Positions 2,958 through 25,500 of a stretch of 64,000 nt of DNA are shown in pieces. The stretch spans positions 1,736,001-1,800,000 of the forward strand of contig NZ_CP099567.1 in assembly GCF_022530855.2 (NCBI RefSeq), given 5' to 3'. Below the pieces are notes generated by a model that was not told the DNA's origin, did no database searches, and saw only the letters and a list, made by a program, of their open reading frames with translations. Every line of letters starts with the position of its first letter. The stretch's first letter is position 1. The position numbers and the translations under genes were made by a program. This DNA comes from Candidatus Vondammii sp. HM_W22 (lineage in GTDB: Bacteria > Pseudomonadota > Gammaproteobacteria > Chromatiales > Chromatiaceae).

Positions 2958-3163
2958 ATGCCTTATAAAGAACGCCTGACCGTACTCCACGAAGCAGAAA
3001 TTAACGATTTATATGGCGTTCCCAGCCTGTCACTGGAAGAAAAACGTATCAGTTTTACTCTGAATGATCTGGAGCAGGACGTTATTAAATCCATCAGGGA
3101 TCGCAATCATAAATGCTATGCTATTGGGGTTCTGGGGACATTCCGTCCTAAAGTGACACTTAT
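2958..3163 (+). pseudogene. N-terminal fragment of a second Tn3-family transposase
   Basis: The frame starts at ATG 2958 and gives MPYKERLTVLHEAEINDLYG followed by SFTLNDLEQD and GVLGTFRPK. This aligns with the N-terminus of the neighbouring Tn3 transposase (LTEAEIVDLFGPPAL, FFTLNDIELAQ, VVLLGYFKVKP) but is clearly divergent, so it comes from a different Tn3 element. Similarity ends near codon 68; the open frame continues to 3233 as unrelated sequence. No Shine-Dalgarno-linked downstream protein survives. It is a dead fragment. Confidence 0.75.
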
Positions 3164-3201
3164 CTCTACAGCCCATACCCCACAAGGCCTACAGAGGTGG
3201 C

Positions 3202-3400
3202 TTAATTTTCATTTTGCACGATTGATTGCATAATTTCATCCAAATCTAGTAGGTTTTGTTCAAAGCTAAAGCTGTAAGTTCCGTTCAAATTGATGTTATG
3301 CCAAGCCACTGGCGAAACTTGCTTAATAATTTCCAACTTCTTATCGTCACTTTCCCCCTCAAAATGCTACAGACTAATTGGAAATCTCATCCTTGTCATG
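3202..3400 (-). pseudogene. C-terminal fragment of a Tn3-family transposase, opposite strand
   Basis: On the minus strand, ending at the TAA at 3202-3204, the sequence reads KLEIIKQVSPVAWHNINL, then NGTYSFSFEQNLLDLDEIM. This is the family's C-terminal signature, compare SPVAWYNINLKGTYNF in copy 1. An in-frame TAG upstream (after PISL) and the loss of everything N-terminal make it a remnant. It could belong with the plus-strand N-terminal fragment at 2958 after an inversion, but that is inference. Confidence 0.7.
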
Positions 3401-3404
3401 GCTC

Positions 3405-3706
3405 TATTTTTGGGGGAAAGGTCAGGTCTGCCGTCACTGCCTGTAGTCTTTCCAGGGCACATACTTCATCGAGTTGCGCACCATGTGAACAATACAGAGC
3501 TGGACCTGAGTCTCGGGAAACGCTGTATTGATTGCGTCTGGAAAGCCCTTTAGGCCATCAACACAGGCTATCAGTATATCCTTCACGCCGCGATTCTTGA
3601 GCTCTGTGAATACATTGAGCCAGAACTTGGCACCCTCATTCTCTGACAGCCAGAGCCCCAACAATTCCTTGTGGCCCTCCATGTTCAGAGTTAGAGTTAT
3701 AGTCAA
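3405..3706 (-). pseudogene. IS256-family transposase fragment (type a)
   Basis: Internal piece of a Mutator/IS256 transposase: GHKELLGLWLSENEGAKFWL, GVKDILIACVDGLKGFPDAI, CIVHMVRNSMKYVPWKDY. These blocks include the second catalytic Asp region (ACVDGLKGFPDA) and the conserved HMVRNS segment. It breaks after WKDY because of a 1-base loss (TACAGG versus TACAAGG at 9150). The overlapping stretch is nearly identical to the fragment at 9030-9598, so the two may be halves or sisters of one element. Confidence 0.8.
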
Positions 3707-3728
3707 ATCTGGTGTTTAGCCAGTTGAA

Positions 3729-4622
3729 TCAAGCGGCGACCTGATCGACTCCTGCTACCTCAAGACCCTCTTTAAATTTGATTCCGGTTATCACCTTCGC
3801 CAGATAATCGAAACCCCGTAATCGTCTCCACGTCTTCTCGGGACACAGGCCGAGTTTGAACATCATGTGTAGCATGCCGTCACGCGATAGGCAGCCCTTG
3901 GAACGCTTGGTTCGATGGCGGATTGTCCCGAAGGTGGATTCAATAGGATTGCTGGTCCGAATGCTCTGCTAGTGCTGCGCAGGAAATTGATAGAAAGCCA
4001 TCAGTTCCTCTCGGTCTTTGTGCAGACAGATGGCAGCCTTCGGATACTTTGGCTCATACGTTTTGATAAACAGATCAAAGGCCTTTTCCGCATCGGCCTG
4101 GGTCTCCGACTGCCAGATGTTATGCAGTGCCTGCTTCGCTTTCGGCTGAGCTGACCTTGGCAGGCAGTTCAGCACGTTCATGGTCTTGTGCATCCAGCAG
4201 CGCTGCTGACGCGTCTCTGGATACACTTCCTCCAGTGCAGCCCAGAAGCCCATAGCACCGTCTCCGATTGCCAATTTGGGCGGGTTTAGTCCGCGTGACT
4301 TCAGTTTCAACAGTACCTCCCGCCAGCTCTGTGTGGACTCCCGTACACCATCCTCAATTGCCAGAAAATGCTTCTCACCACGCTCATTCACGCCGATCAC
4401 CACCAGGGCACACAGCTTCGTCTGCTCTGCTCTCTGTCCGCTGTAGACACCGTCTGCCCACACATACACCCAATGGCCCTTATCCAGGAGCTCCTCGCAC
4501 CAGCTCCGATATTCTTCTGTCCAGACCTGCTTCAGACGCGATACCCTGCCGGCCGACAAGCCTGTTGCATCCGGACCCACCAGCACTTTCAGGGCTTCAC
4601 CCATCTCTCCACTGGAAATGCC
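3729..4622 (-). pseudogene. IS256-family transposase (type b), broken by an amber codon
   Basis: Transposase of a second IS256 lineage. Visible blocks are ISSGEMGEALKVLVGPDA, WVYVWADGVYSGQRAEQTKL (first catalytic Asp), KLAIGDGAMGFWAALEEVYP (second Asp region) and QQRCWMHKTMNVLNCLP. At 3969-3971 a TAG replaces the Trp expected in the family motif (AEHWxxLRTxNPIEST); the frame then continues SIRTSNPIESTFGTIRHRTK to a TGA at 3729-3731. About 80-100 N-terminal residues are lost where it abuts the IS1595 remnant near 4622. Reads antisense to its right-hand neighbour. Confidence 0.85.
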
Positions 4623-5326
4623 CTTGTTAAAGAAGTGGTTTCTGGCCATCTATTTGTTGACTCAGCGTAAAAAGAGTACTTCTGCCTTGCAACTGTCCCG
4701 TGAAATTGGTGTGAACTACAATACAGCCTGGAAGCTCAAGCACAAACTGATGCAGGTGATGATGGAACGTCAGAGTCAAAAAAAACTGGCTGGTCGCATC
4801 GAGATGGATGATGCCTGTATTGGTGGTGAGAAACTGGGAAAGCGTGGGCGAGGGTCTTGTAATAAAATCCCTTTCGTGGCAGCTGTTGAGACGACGCAGG
4901 ACGGCAGGCCAATGAAGATCCAACTGCGTTGGCTCCGCGGTTTTCAGAGTGCGGAGATCGCTCGATATGCCAGATCCAGTCTGTGTGCTGGCAGCACAGT
5001 TCTTTCTGATGGGCTCTACTGCTTCAGAGCAGTTACAGATGCTGGATGTGATCGTATGCCTATCGTCACTGGTGGTGGGCGAAAGTATACCCAGCTCTCC
5101 ACCTTTAAATGACTGAATACCATGCTTGGTAATATCAAGAATGCTTTGCAGGGAACCTTTCATGCTATTCGTAAAAAAACACGTACCTCGTTATCTCGCC
5201 GAGTTTGAATATCGCTTTAATCGCCGGTTTAATCTTCCGGCTATGATTGAACGATTACTCTGCGCCGCGTTACGTACACCACCGATGCCTTATCCCCTCC
5301 TGAGGATGGCTGAGGTTTATGGGTAA
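4618..5326 (+). pseudogene. IS1595-family (ISXO2-like) transposase, nonsense and frameshift
   Basis: The frame encodes KKWFLAIYLLTQRKKSTSAL, LSREIGVNYNTAWKLKHKLM, then EMDDACIGGEKLGKRGRGSC, the ISXO2-like DDE domain start. The N-terminal zinc-ribbon part is missing where it meets the IS256 remnant. A TGA at 5110-5112 stands where family members have Trp (STFK-W-LNTMLGNIKNALQG). A further 1-base gain in a run of seven A near 5172 shifts the frame; the tail resumes as HVPRYLAEFEYRFNRRFNLP and ends at 5326. Three independent lesions make it inactive. Confidence 0.85.
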
Positions 5327-6216
5327 TCAGGTATATGTTTGACGAAACAGTGCGCTCACCTCCACATTGGCCTCGCCATCGCTCAGACCCAGCGGCTCGA
5401 TCACCGGGCTGTCCGGCATCTCGTCCTTAAGCGTTATCGCCTGTTTCTTGATACCATGAATAAGCTCCATAATCCGCTTGTTCTCCAGCCACGCCTGACC
5501 ATCCAGATACTTACGCAGCTGTTCCACCAGATGGTTGTTGGTCTGGTAGACCTTTATCGATTCATCCATCGAATCGGGCTGCTCCTGCGCGTCATTCAAC
5601 AAACCGCCGACCGCCGCCACCAAAGTCTCCAGCTCCACCTGGCGAACATCAGCGAGCAACTTGTGCGCGGTATCTTCGGCCTGGTAAAAGCGTTCACGAA
5701 CCTGGATGGCATTCAGCGTTTCGAGGCGTCCGGCTCTTATGTCGGTAATTTCCCGATCGATCTCCCCCCAACTCTGCTATACGCACCCGCACCTGTGGGT
5801 CCCGCTCGCTCCCTGGGAAGATCTCCTGCAGCCACTCCACCGCCTTTTCAGTTGCAGGTGTCAAATCGAACACCGGCTCGTCGCTCTGCGCCGTGTAATA
5901 TTTGAGCAGGGAGAGTGAGCTCTCGCACTCCAATCATCCAGATAACGCTGGGCGCTCTTCGAGTAGAGCGCCTCGCCATGTATCTGCCGTAACTGATAAA
6001 GATAGTCATCCAGACGGGAGACCAGATCGGATTGCGCCAAGGAGCGCCGGTTGACCTTGATGAATTGTAATAGAGAAAACTGATAATCAACGGGCCATTG
6101 TCCGCCGCCAGAAGTTTCAGCGTTGGATAAGACTGCTTCAGACGCAGCAGATACTCATAGTCCAGGGATTGCCAATCCTCATACTGCGGTGATTTCTGTT
6201 CGATAGAGACGCTCAT
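5327..6216 (-). pseudogene. jetA: Broken jetA (DUF3375), remnant of a Wadjet plasmid-defence locus
   Basis: Pieces of a DUF3375 protein are scattered over three frames. In order: LDYEYLLRLKQSYPTLKLLA, DNGPLIISFLYY, then (after a shift) KYYTAQSDEPVFDLTPATEK and AVEWLQEI, then EIDREITDIRAGRLETLNAI and RERFYQAEDTAHKLLADVRQ, then after a large internal deletion NHLVEQLRKYLDGQAWLENK and RIMELIHGIKKQAITLKDEM. The spacing and wording match JetA, the kleisin-like subunit of the SMC-type Wadjet complex. An intact protein is about 480 aa; roughly 100 central residues are gone. No jetB, jetC or jetD is visible nearby, so the system is dead. Confidence 0.8.
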
Positions 6217-6251: not shown

Positions 6252-7088
6252 CTAATGCGCATCTCTAACCCGCAGAAACGATGCAAATCGGGGAATACCA
6301 TTATTGGTGAAGCTCTGGTACTTGAACGTAATCACTCTGCCGACAGCAGGTGGTACCGCTCGCTCCCGGTCTGTCAGTCCAGAGCCAATATAGAAACGCT
6401 TACCACCCTCAATCTCTACCCACAAGGCTCCGGTCATCCCCTGATATTTTCCTTTGCCGGGCCGGTATCCGATCACCCTGCCCTCCATATCATCGAAACG
6501 TTTCACCTTGAGTGCATTGAAACCGCGTCCAGTTTCATAAAGACTACTGGGATTTCTCAATACCAACCCCTCACCATCCGCTGCTTCCACTGCCTTCAGT
6601 CGTGCCATGAGATGGTTCTTATCGCGACAAATCACTTGAGGGATAATCCGGAGATGCGCAACCGGTTCTCTTTTCAGGTAGTCGCGAAGTTGACCAAGAC
6701 GGGTAGGCAGACCACCCTGCGCATTGGGGACCTCAAAAATATTGTAGGTGATGTCGTTCCAACCCGAATGCGGTTGGCTTTGTGAGGTAATGGAGTGTAT
6801 CTCTTCGAAGCGTTTCCGGGAAATCCACAATTCACCATCCAGCTCAAATGAGGGGAGCTTTTCGGTGAACCAGAGGTGTGCGGCAAACGCATTTCCCTGG
6901 CGGGATAGCAATTGTCTGCCATTCCAATAGGCCCGTACACCATCGAGCTTCTCCCTCATATACCAGCCGTTTGTATTCATCGACTGCTGATATTTTGTCA
7001 GTAGCAGAAGATCAGGCGCTGCCGCATGAGTTGCCAAGGCGACAAATAGGGTAAAAAAACCAGCCAAACAGATCCCTGTTCTATTCAT
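6252..7088 (-). CDS. Exported ATP-dependent DNA ligase (Lig E type)
   Basis: 278 aa. The nucleotidyltransferase motif I is KLDGVRAYW, with the adenylated Lys at about residue 47. Motif III/IIIa (FELDGELWI), motif IV (EGLVLRNPSS) and motif V (ALKVKRFDD) follow, then a short OB-fold domain. The length and lack of extra domains fit the minimal Lig E group. An N-terminal signal peptide (GICLAGFFTLFVALATHAAA) predicts export to the periplasm, where Lig E enzymes are thought to seal extracellular or incoming DNA. A good ribosome site (GGGAGG) precedes the ATG at 7088. It stands alone between the jetA remnant and a membrane protein gene. Confidence 0.85.
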   Translation of the reverse strand: MNRTGICLAGFFTLFVALATHAAAPDLLLLTKYQQSMNTNGWYMREKLDGVRAYWNGRQLLSRQGNAFAAHLWFTEKLPSFELDGELWISRKRFEEIHSITSQSQPHSGWNDITYNIFEVPNAQGGLPTRLGQLRDYLKREPVAHLRIIPQVICRDKNHLMARLKAVEAADGEGLVLRNPSSLYETGRGFNALKVKRFDDMEGRVIGYRPGKGKYQGMTGALWVEIEGGKRFYIGSGLTDRERAVPPAVGRVITFKYQSFTNNGIPRFASFLRVRDAH

Positions 7089-7775: not shown

Positions 7776-7965
7776 TCAGACAAATCGCATCCCGACACTG
7801 CCCAGGCCCTGGAAGCGGGCATTGACGTTGTCGCCTTTCTCTACGGCCACTGCGGCAGTGATGCCACCGGTCAAAATCAAGGTTCCGGCAGGTATCTCTT
7901 CACCCCGCTCTCCCAGCATGTTGGCCAGCAATGCAACACTGGCGGCAGGATGACCCAGCACGGCC
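7776..7965 (-). pseudogene. C-terminal fragment of 2-oxo-3-hexenedioate decarboxylase / hydratase family gene
   Basis: The frame reads AVLGHPAASVALLANMLGER, GEEIPAGTLILTGGITAAVA, VEKGDNVNARFQGLGSVGMR. This is the closing part of the fumarylacetoacetate-hydrolase-fold decarboxylases and hydratases of the catechol meta-cleavage pathway (DmpH, MhpD type). Only about 60 of about 260 residues remain; the IS256 element to the right has replaced the rest. Decarboxylase and hydratase cannot be told apart from this fragment. Confidence 0.7.
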
Positions 7966-9026
7966 GCAACGGCACGACCAGCAAGACCTTGCAAACGGAA
8001 GATGGCCAGTTTGAACTGGATACCCCGCGAGATAGAGCGGGCAGCTTTGAACCTCAGCTAGTTAAGAAGCACCAGCGTCGATTTACCTCAATGGATGACA
8101 AGATCCTCTTCTTGTATGCCCAAGGTATGACAACCCGCGAAATCGTCACGACATTCAAGGAGATGTATGGGGCCGATGTCTCTGCCACACTCATATCCAA
8201 AGTCACTGATGCAGTTATCGAACAGGTTGTTGAATGGCAATCTCGCCCCCTGGATGCGATTTATCCTATTGTTTATCTGGACTGCATTGTCGTTAAAATC
8301 AGGCAAGACAAGAAAGTGATCAACAAAGCGATTTACCTCGCTCTGGGCGTTAACCTGGAAGGCCACAAGGAATTATTAGGGATGTGGCTATCGGAGAATG
8401 AGGGGGCCAAATTCTGGCTGAACGTGTTGACAGAGCTTCAAAACCGCGGTGTGAAGGATATTTTGATTGCCTGTGTCGAAGGCTTAAAAGGCTTTCCTGA
8501 TGCCATCAACACGGCCTTTCCGGATACCCAGATTCAGCTCTGTATCGTGCATATGGTACGGAACTCGATGAAGTACGTGCCCTGGAAAGACTACAAGCCT
8601 GTCACGGCTGATTTGAAAAAGATTTACCAGTCCATCACCGAGGAAGAAGCCTTATTGGCGCTGGATAAATTCTCTGACCGGTGGGACAATAAGTACCCCC
8701 GGATCAGCCGCTCCTGGCCTGCCCATCGGCAGAATATCAACACGCTGTTCAGCTACCCGGAGGACAAACGAAAAGTGATCTGCACGAACAACACCATTAG
8801 CCGCTGAACAGCGTCATTCGCAAAGTGATCAAAAAACGGAAATTATTTCCAACCGATGACTCGGCAAAGAAGGTAATCTATCTGGCAATCCAGGCCGCAT
8901 CGAAAAAGTAGACAATGCCGATCCGTCATTGGAAACCAGCACTGAATAGATTTATGATTGGGTTCGGAAGAACGCTTAGCGGTATACATTTAACCCAGGC
9001 AGTTACACAGAAAACTTTACAGGCTC
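7957..9026 (+). pseudogene. IS256-family element (type a) with broken transposase
   Basis: Largest type-a copy. The frame runs SKTLQTEDGQFELDTPRDRA, MDDKILFLYAQGMTTREIVT, PIVYLDCIVVKIRQDKKVIN (first Asp), ILIACVEGLKGFPDAINTAF (second Asp region in which family GLK is retained), and ends early at 8807 through a frameshift at TNNTI/SR. The remainder (LNSVIRKVIKKRKLFPTDDS) follows in another frame and has TAG at 8909-8911 for the Trp of KKWTMPI. The right terminal repeat (TTTACAGGCTCT) ends near 9026. The N-terminal 90 residues were lost at the junction with the decarboxylase fragment. Confidence 0.85.
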
Positions 9027-22548: not shown

Positions 22549-25500
22549 ATGACCACAGAGAAACGACTCAAGATCCTCACCGAAGCGGAAATTGTTGACT
22601 TGTTCGGCCCGCCAGCACTCAATCAAAACGATCAACGATTCTTCTTCACACTCAATGATATCGAATTGGCCCAGTGCCAGAAGATTCGCAGGCGTGATCA
22701 ACGCTGCATGTTCGTTGTGTTGCTCGGCTACTTTAAAGTGAAGCCCATTTCTTTGAGTCCCGGCTACCACCAGATCAAGCATGATATTAAATATGTCTGC
22801 TCAGAAGTGTTTCCCGGTTCCGGTCTGAGTCCCTTCAATCTAACTCAAAAAACTCGTGTGCGTATCTATCATCGCATATACGAATTAACAAACCATCAAC
22901 GCTGGGAGAACGAACGGCACAGCGCCGCGCTGACAATAGACCTTCGCGAACACGCACAAGCATGGGCTCAACCGCGAGCGTTGTTTGACAGGGCTATTGA
23001 ATACTTAGCGGCACAAAAAATTAGCATTCCTGGGTACTCAGTTTTGCAAGACTTGATCAGTGATGTCGTCAGTGCTACCAACGATCAACTCATTCGCCAA
23101 CTCGAAGACCTCATCTCTGTTGACTTGACTTCTATGTTGTCTGACTTTGTCGAAGGCAATGACCCACTGACTCTACGGCGGTTAAGAATGGCGGCTAAGA
23201 ACATTACAAGGAGTGAGTTGCAAAAAGAACTCGCCGTACATCAGCACATTCAATCTTGGATGCTAGAAGTCGATGAGGTTTTAAGTCAGCTATCAATATC
23301 GTTGAAGAATCAGCAGTACTTTGCTGAAAGAGTGACTTACTATGGTGCCAAACTAAAACGCCAACCTGTTGGTTATCAACGCCTCTACTTGTTGTGCTAT
23401 TTGCAATCGCGTTGGCAACAGGCACTGGAACGAATAGCCGATGGCTTTGTTCATCATCTTTTTCAAAGAAAACAGAAAAGCCAAAATATACGCGAGAGAA
23501 TCTGTTTATCAAGACTGGCAACGAGCTGCGAGTAACGTCAGTAAAGCGGCGCAAGTGTTGCGTCTTTTTATCGACGACAGAGTAGATCAACAACAACCGT
23601 TTGGGGCGTTACGGCAGCATGCTTTTAAACTTCTAGCGGCGAAAGATCTGGAATCCGTTTGCCTGTTTTTGAATGATCAAAAGCGATCGGTTGAAGAGGC
23701 CACGTGGCAGTACTTCGATCACCGGGTGAGCTTACGAGAAGGCTTACTTCGTGATCTATTCCTGTGCTTGCACTTTGAAGGCGGTGAAAAAACACAGCGC
23801 CTGGCAGCTACACTGCATCGTGCGCAGCGTGATCTTATCGCCGATGGTGAAATCTCAATCGGCGCAATGGATAGCCGCTTGCCTACCAAGAAGCAATTGT
23901 CGTTCATGCAAGACTCGAGCGGCGTGATGAATAAAGGTCGGTACGAATGGTTCCTTTACTTGCAAATCCCCAATCGGTTGAATGGCCAGCTCACACTGCC
24001 AAATGTGTTTAAATACAGGGCTTTGGAGGCTGATCTAGTCAATCGTGAGCGATGGACAGAAGAAAAAGACGCGCTATTAGAGCGCACCCAGTTGCCTAAA
24101 TTAGCCGCCAATCCCAACAAACTCATTGACCAAATGGCCAAAAACCTGGGTGTTAGATTACAAGAAGTGAGTCACTATCTAGAACACGATGACAACCGAA
24201 ATATTATCCTGAGAAACCCCAAAGGAAAGCGCCATTGGCGCTTACCCACGGCCAACAAAAAGTACTTGGTCAATAATCCGTTCTTCCAGCAACTACCCAC
24301 GACTGGCGTTGCCGATGTGTTGCGAATGGTCGATCGCGACACAGGCTTCCTTGATGACTTTAAGCATGTACTGGGTGCACAGTCGAAGAGCCGAGCACAC
24401 GAGTATGACCTGTTGGCTATCTTGGTGGGCAACGCGACCAACCAAGGCATTTATGGTATCGCTCAAATATCCGATCGCACTTACGATCAGCTCAGCACCA
24501 TTCAGGCGAACTATCTGAGGTTAGAAACACTGAACGCAGCCAACGATCGCATCAACAACGCAACGGCTAAGCTTCCGATCTTCAAGCACTACAATATCCA
24601 AGAAGATGTTATCCACGCCAGTGCTGATGGTCAGAAGTTCGAATCCCGGCGTGAGACATTTAAAACACGTTACTCGTCAAAATACTTTGGCACGCAAAAA
24701 GGCGTGTCGGCCATGAGCTTGATCGCCAATCATGCGGCCATCAATGCTCGTGTGATCGGTGCTAACGAGCACGAGTCCCACTACATCTTCGATCTACTGA
24801 TGAACAATAGTTCCGAGATCGTGCCAGACGTACTGTCTACCGATACGCACGGAGTCAATCACATCAACTTCGCATTGCTAGATCTCTTTGGGTACAGCTT
24901 TGCTCCACGCTATGCTCAGGTGGGTCGTGTCATCAATGAGATGTTCGATGTCAAAGAAGACAAGGATAAGAAAATCCAATTGAGTCTGAAAAAGCCCATC
25001 AACACCAAGCTCATCGCGGCTCACTGGGATACTATACAACGGATCATGATCTCACTTTATGAACGCAAAACAACGCAAGCGACATTGGTTAGAAAGCTCT
25101 CAGGTTACAAAAGCAGCCACCCGTTACTCGGGGCACTAACGGAATACAATCGTATGGTGAAAGCGAATTATTTACTCAACTACATCGATGACGTCAGTCT
25201 GCGCGACTACGTTCAGCGAGCACTCAATCGAGGCGAGGCTTACCACCAACTGCGTCGTGCAATCAGCAACGTCAATGGTGATCAGTTCCGCGGCAGCTCG
25301 GATGAGGAGATCCAACTGTGGAACGAATGTGCTCGCCTGGTTACCAACGCTATAATCTACTTTAACTCGGCCATACTCAGTCAGTTGCTGACTAGCTTTG
25401 AATATCAGAAGGATGATGAAAAAATCCAGATCGTCAAATCAAGCCTCCCCAGTTGCCTGGTACAACATCAACCTGAAAGGCACCTACAACTTCCAAATGA

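Follow-up and report, generated by a model that had tools for sequence, protein, structure and literature searches.

With a probability of roughly 0.9, all that is left of a former type I Wadjet locus in Candidatus Vondammii sp. HM_W22 is a part of its first gene, which no longer functions. The region was studied in a window of 64,000 nucleotides (contig NZ_CP099567.1, positions 1,736,001 to 1,800,000), to which all coordinates refer, and was compared with the whole genome, which consists of one contig of 3,352,437 bases. As judged from the sequence, positions 5334-6216 of the minus strand are a pseudogene of jetA (DUF3375). The initial annotation had proposed that this lineage once possessed a Wadjet locus and lost it, which is supported by the DUF3375 relic and by the absence of matches to the partner profiles in the genome. 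The relic is a pseudogene of ordinary type from a known defence system, and nothing unusual for such a genome; new beyond the initial annotation are the separate deletions, the transposon end within the gene, the fusion of two truncated elements and the genome-wide search in which the partners were not found. In intact systems, JetA, JetB and JetC are the kleisin, KITE and SMC proteins of a complex which is believed to extrude small DNA circles and to pass them on to the nuclease JetD; all four Jet proteins are needed against plasmids in B. subtilis (PMC10586767).

The identity of the relic was determined with profile and protein searches. A genome-wide search with PF11855 (DUF3375), the check proposed in the initial annotation, gave three matching stretches above the cut-off, all on the minus strand and all at this locus (5408-5569, 5921-6064 and 5627-5764; E 2.0e-7, 2.3e-7 and 1.3e-6), and no further match elsewhere in the 3.35-Mb genome. 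When the ORFs were scanned one by one, ORF 5327-5659 matched Pfam DUF3375 with 33.9 bits (cut-off 28.6) and the other two relic ORFs matched no Pfam family. All three were matched by the PADLOC profile JetA1, PDLC00457 (2.3e-16, 2.3e-9 and 3.1e-5). It is the best PADLOC profile for the relic, as for the intact JetA of Candidatus Sedimenticola endophacoides from the same family, and to this extent the relic is like type I Wadjet; the intact protein also matches solved JetA chains (e.g. 8q72 and 8as8) by sequence. The C-terminal relic ORF has a weak additional PADLOC match to ZorA (8.9e-5). A tblastn search with the Ca. S. endophacoides JetA against the relic scored 125, 107 and 57.8 bits, whereas 500 shuffled versions of this stretch reached 26.9 bits at most. 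PF11855, PDLC00457 and the tblastn scores relative to the shuffles bear out the original observation of JetA blocks lying in order but in three frames.

For a codon-level comparison, the relic was aligned to intact JetA with a frame-tolerant alignment implemented in our own script. The following features were obtained:

5334-6216, minus strand: jetA (DUF3375, type I Wadjet kleisin) pseudogene, equivalent to residues 1-418 of a 500-residue relative
6070-6216, minus strand: JetA block 1, the N-terminal ~49 residues, in a frame of its own
5927-6069, minus strand: JetA block 2 (QFIKVNRRS...YLDDWS), in a second frame
5769-5926, minus strand: JetA block 3 (KYYTAQSDEPVFDLTPATEKAVEW...), in a third frame
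5334-5768, minus strand: JetA block 4 (IDREI...ALFRQTY), again in the frame of block 2

In the alignment with the closest intact JetA found, that of Ca. S. endophacoides, residues 1-418 of 500 are covered, and of the 293 codons aligned 193 are identical (66%). The jetA frame is not intact: it contains three frame changes and four larger deletions, and its 3' end of 82 codons is gone. The frame changes, at about 6069, 5926 and 5768, fall at the same places against three intact relatives, except that one relative puts the second change at 5923. The four larger deletions comprise about 22 codons in block 3, where the conserved FVGTESRLL motif is taken, and about 59, 13 and 27 codons in block 4, each within one frame and together 121 codons; this division depends on the reference, since two other relatives give a shorter or split first and third deletion, and the more distant of the two gives a different distribution of the missing codons. 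Three gaps of 1-2 codons lie near the frame changes in the comparison with Ca. S. endophacoides. The final 82 of the 500 codons were lost at a transposon end. Thus, of the initial statement that about 100 central codons are gone, the loss itself is real, but it consists of four deletions instead of one and is accompanied by the terminal loss. The extent first given, 5327-6216, has the correct start, as homology to JetA begins at 6216; its end has to be moved, as homology stops at 5334 and 5327-5333 is transposon sequence.

Searches for the partner genes gave no matches. For jetB, the DUF4194 profile had no match in the genome, and neither had DUF3322 (PF11795) and JetD_C (PF09983) for jetD; all of them match the control, Corynebacterium glutamicum. 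For jetC, one JetC1 profile (PDLC00512) had no match in this genome or in that of a genus-mate and matches the control Ca. S. endophacoides; a JetC protein used as a lone query, run without a control, had no match in the genome either. In tblastn searches of JetB, JetC and JetD against the window nothing fell below E 0.17, and in the 60 kb to its left nothing fell below E 0.24 for JetB and JetD. JetC-like tblastn matches were obtained to the left of the window (E of 4e-5 or higher), but all lie inside one ORF which encodes an SMC protein with a hinge domain, and they were rejected. The remark that jetB, jetC and jetD are not within reach therefore holds genome-wide for the type I profile searches. 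Unlike type I Wadjet, the relic has broken frames and lacks core motifs and the C-terminus, and jetB, jetC and jetD were not found. A cell that lacks three of the jet genes and has only a broken copy of the fourth could have no activity of type I Wadjet, and plasmid restriction by this system is expected to be absent.

Conservation was evaluated on an alignment of 73 intact JetA proteins out of 80; seven were dropped, because their tblastn ranges extended upstream past a stop codon close to the start of the range. Among the 82 columns conserved at ≥ 95% in the 73 proteins, 42 are missing from the relic, 31 of them internally and 11 in the lost end. Within the kept blocks, 37 of 40 columns conserved at 95% are matched (4 of the 73 intact proteins do worse), as are 10 of 12 invariant columns (one of the 73 does worse); mismatches near the frame changes may inflate these counted losses. 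Decay by substitution in the kept blocks is thus slight, and jetA must have been broken for a short time relative to its divergence from the Ca. S. endophacoides JetA. Placement of the relic with MAFFT was set aside, because it aligned one stretch with a different part of JetA than the frame-tolerant alignment did. It gave 39 of 82 conserved columns missing and, in the kept part, 39 of 43 and 11 of 14 matched (4 and 0 of the 73 intact proteins being worse).

A gene so little altered in its conserved residues might also be an intact jetA which seems broken through errors of sequencing or assembly, and small frame changes are a common long-read error. However, errors would hardly delete about 121 codons at four places or cut the gene at a transposon end, nor would they erase jetB, jetC and jetD. 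Furthermore, the published genome matching this one was assembled from Illumina and PacBio reads (PMC10300362). This explanation is considered extremely improbable.

All four larger deletions are in frame and the smaller changes shift the frame; the chance of the former under neutrality is about 1 in 81, which makes it a mild oddity. Direct repeats were looked for in the jetA of the intact relative, as a stand-in for the lost ancestor. At the place matching the 22-codon deletion, direct repeats of 6 bases are found 66 bases apart, and at that matching the 59-codon deletion repeats of 7 bases are found 177 apart. For the third deletion a direct repeat is present with a spacing that does not fit (45 versus 39), and for the fourth no direct repeat of ≥ 6 bases was detected. 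Slippage between short direct repeats is thus a plausible origin of at least two internal deletions. As these repeats encode the same residues, slippage there could also account for the in-frame lengths, without selection.

The in-frame lengths, together with the 149 codons over which block 4 can still be read openly, could instead indicate that JetA, though shortened, still worked or was tolerated as a protein for some time and that the frame changes came last. Against this, the deletions take highly conserved motifs, namely FVGTESRLL and the SDQGRSFRAFWEFLMS stretch, an SMC partner of the Wadjet kind was not found in the genome, and deletion at repeats of this type can give in-frame lengths without selection. 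We regard such a protein as very unlikely. A more specific version, in which JetA, its core shrunk in frame, was selected or tolerated before the frame changes as a partner-less or altered kleisin, is slightly less probable again; if true, a shrunken kleisin could, for example, poison a still-present Wadjet or related complex during the loss of the system.

Reduction of a former Wadjet locus leaves the terminal loss to be accounted for, and there the flanking sequence was compared with copies of the adjoining elements:

4626-5333, plus strand: right part of an IS1595-type element, equivalent to positions 332-1037 of a reference copy of 1,039 bases
3694-4625, minus strand: 932 of the 1,387 bases of an insertion element of the Mutator (PF00872) type, with 98% identity to a complete copy at another place

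The right terminus of the IS1595-type element, GGTAATCAGGTA, lies at 5322-5333 and ends inside a jetA codon, directly adjoining the relic at 5334. It was recognised from three copies in which both ends are preserved; two of these are in this genome and the third is in the genus-mate. In the element next to jetA, the left part has been lost. For the Mutator-type element (1,387 bases), at least 39 other copies exist in the genome (at least 40 with this one), 94-98% identical over the part compared; these numbers are lower bounds, as 40 of 265 candidate places were scored. Both elements are internally truncated and fused at 4625/4626, where no clear repeat was seen. Such a junction of two internally truncated elements suggests a single deletion across the DNA which lay between them. 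A role of transposons, as suspected from the start, is accordingly supported by the IS1595-type end at the cut in jetA.

The occurrence of jetA was determined in 146 genomes of the family, a sample drawn from a larger group. DUF3375 was matched in 50 of them, this genome included, and in 47 above the cut-off. Ca. S. endophacoides carries open jetA, jetB, jetC and jetD genes in this order. Among the best 80 of 584 jetA loci, all four jet genes were matched in the fetched DNA of 53, and several others lie on short contigs. Another member of the family carries, about 3 kb from its full-length jetA, an additional incomplete DUF3375 gene of 272 aa, which covers positions 2-160 of the profile (L035:10126-10941). 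In a FastTree phylogeny of the relic and the 73 intact JetA from these best 80 loci, the sister of the relic is the Ca. S. endophacoides JetA (support 0.997), followed by Sedimenticola sp. CSMAG_2797 as next out (1.0); the tree from the MAFFT placement gave the same sister (0.985). This position fits inheritance within the group and would also be compatible with exchange between its members. Profile searches in the genus-mate matched neither DUF3375 nor JetC1, and the state before the loss is therefore not seen at an intact locus of a close relative.

On its other side, the relic is adjoined by an open gene:

6252-7088, minus strand: ATP-dependent DNA ligase with DNA_ligase_A_M and OB domains, 35 bases upstream of jetA

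The ligase was considered as a marker of the ancestral Wadjet site and rejected, since its adjacency to jetA is not conserved in the genomes compared. It occurs within the fetched flanks of one of the best 80 of 584 jetA loci (L145), many of which are short, and when the listed rows of the family sample were compared by eye, this was the only listed genome with ligase and jetA within 20 kb on one contig. The ligase query had no match in viral contigs. A search of plasmid records with the first 51 residues of the block 1 ORF returned one weak match (E 0.3).

With transposon pieces on the left flank, a ligase that is not a conserved neighbour on the right, no DUF3375 or JetC1 in the genus-mate and a G+C content of 0.542 versus 0.496 for the window, the jetA piece might have arrived as a fragment on mobile DNA, in a lineage that never had a complete Wadjet. 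However, the piece begins where jetA begins, the JetA that is its sister comes from the same family and heads an intact operon, and the IS end cuts within the gene, so that jetA was probably present before the element. Arrival as a fragment is therefore unlikely, though it deserves more weight than either a misread or a shortened gene. That a complete, working Wadjet once stood here is what we infer from the intact jetABCD headed by the sister jetA of Ca. S. endophacoides.

The reduction of this Wadjet locus may have proceeded as follows. Initially, an IS1595-type element would have inserted at about codon 418 of jetA. A subsequent deletion, reaching from within this element to within the Mutator-type element further on, would have taken the end of jetA, jetB, jetC and jetD as well as the facing parts of both elements. 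If jetB, jetC and jetD lay between the two elements, which is what the gene order in the relative suggests, all three would have been removed at once. With the complex unable to form, nothing would have kept the rest of jetA intact. For the exact route, i.e. the IS1595 insertion followed by a deletion between the two elements, the chances are about even. The relic is predicted to be inert now and the cell to be without a type I Wadjet barrier to small plasmids.

The two 16S genes of the genome differ from each other at two positions. For HMS1 (Candidatus Vondammii deminuti), the symbiont of Sclerolinum annulatum, a circular 3.35-Mb genome of 50.41% G+C in early erosion is described, with a low coding density, 1,057 transposase genes and two rRNA operons, between which the 16S genes differ by two bases (PMC10300362). 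Hence, the genome analysed here almost certainly belongs to a deep-sea tubeworm symbiont in early genome erosion. The main text of PMC10300362 reports no CRISPR-Cas and does not mention Wadjet, DUF3375 or plasmid; Wadjet is not mentioned in the main text of PMC12045306 either. A search of the literature on Wadjet in endosymbionts or as pseudogenes found nothing on this genome. Wadjet genes are counted among the defences of deep-sea snail endosymbionts (PMC8418041).

Decay or loss of Wadjet has been described in other bacteria. JetA and JetC are regarded as pseudogenes in some strains of Xylella fastidiosa, and two strains have no homologs, which is like the present case; most strains there, however, keep the four genes (PMC9148166), and here only the jetA relic was found. 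In Clostridium cellulovorans, a chromosomal deletion took the whole jetABCD cluster, likewise a loss of Wadjet, but this loss was spontaneous, occurred in a laboratory mutant and removed the cluster entirely (PMC12287153). The present locus adds a transposon-marked Wadjet loss in a genome which is almost certainly that of a tubeworm symbiont in early erosion. Loss of a plasmid barrier and a burst of insertion elements form a testable pairing, the order of which a single case cannot show.

Further mobile or truncated genes were observed in the window. A Tn3-type transposase with DUF4158 lies at 15-2864 and a further DUF4158 piece at 2958-3233. The same chance match to JetB at 2364-2513 and 25088-25237 suggests a second Tn3-type copy in the window. 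At 7776-7994, only the C-terminal end of a fumarylacetoacetate hydrolase-like gene is present (below the Pfam cut-off), which overlaps the start of a transposase-like ORF on the opposite strand (7950-8807).
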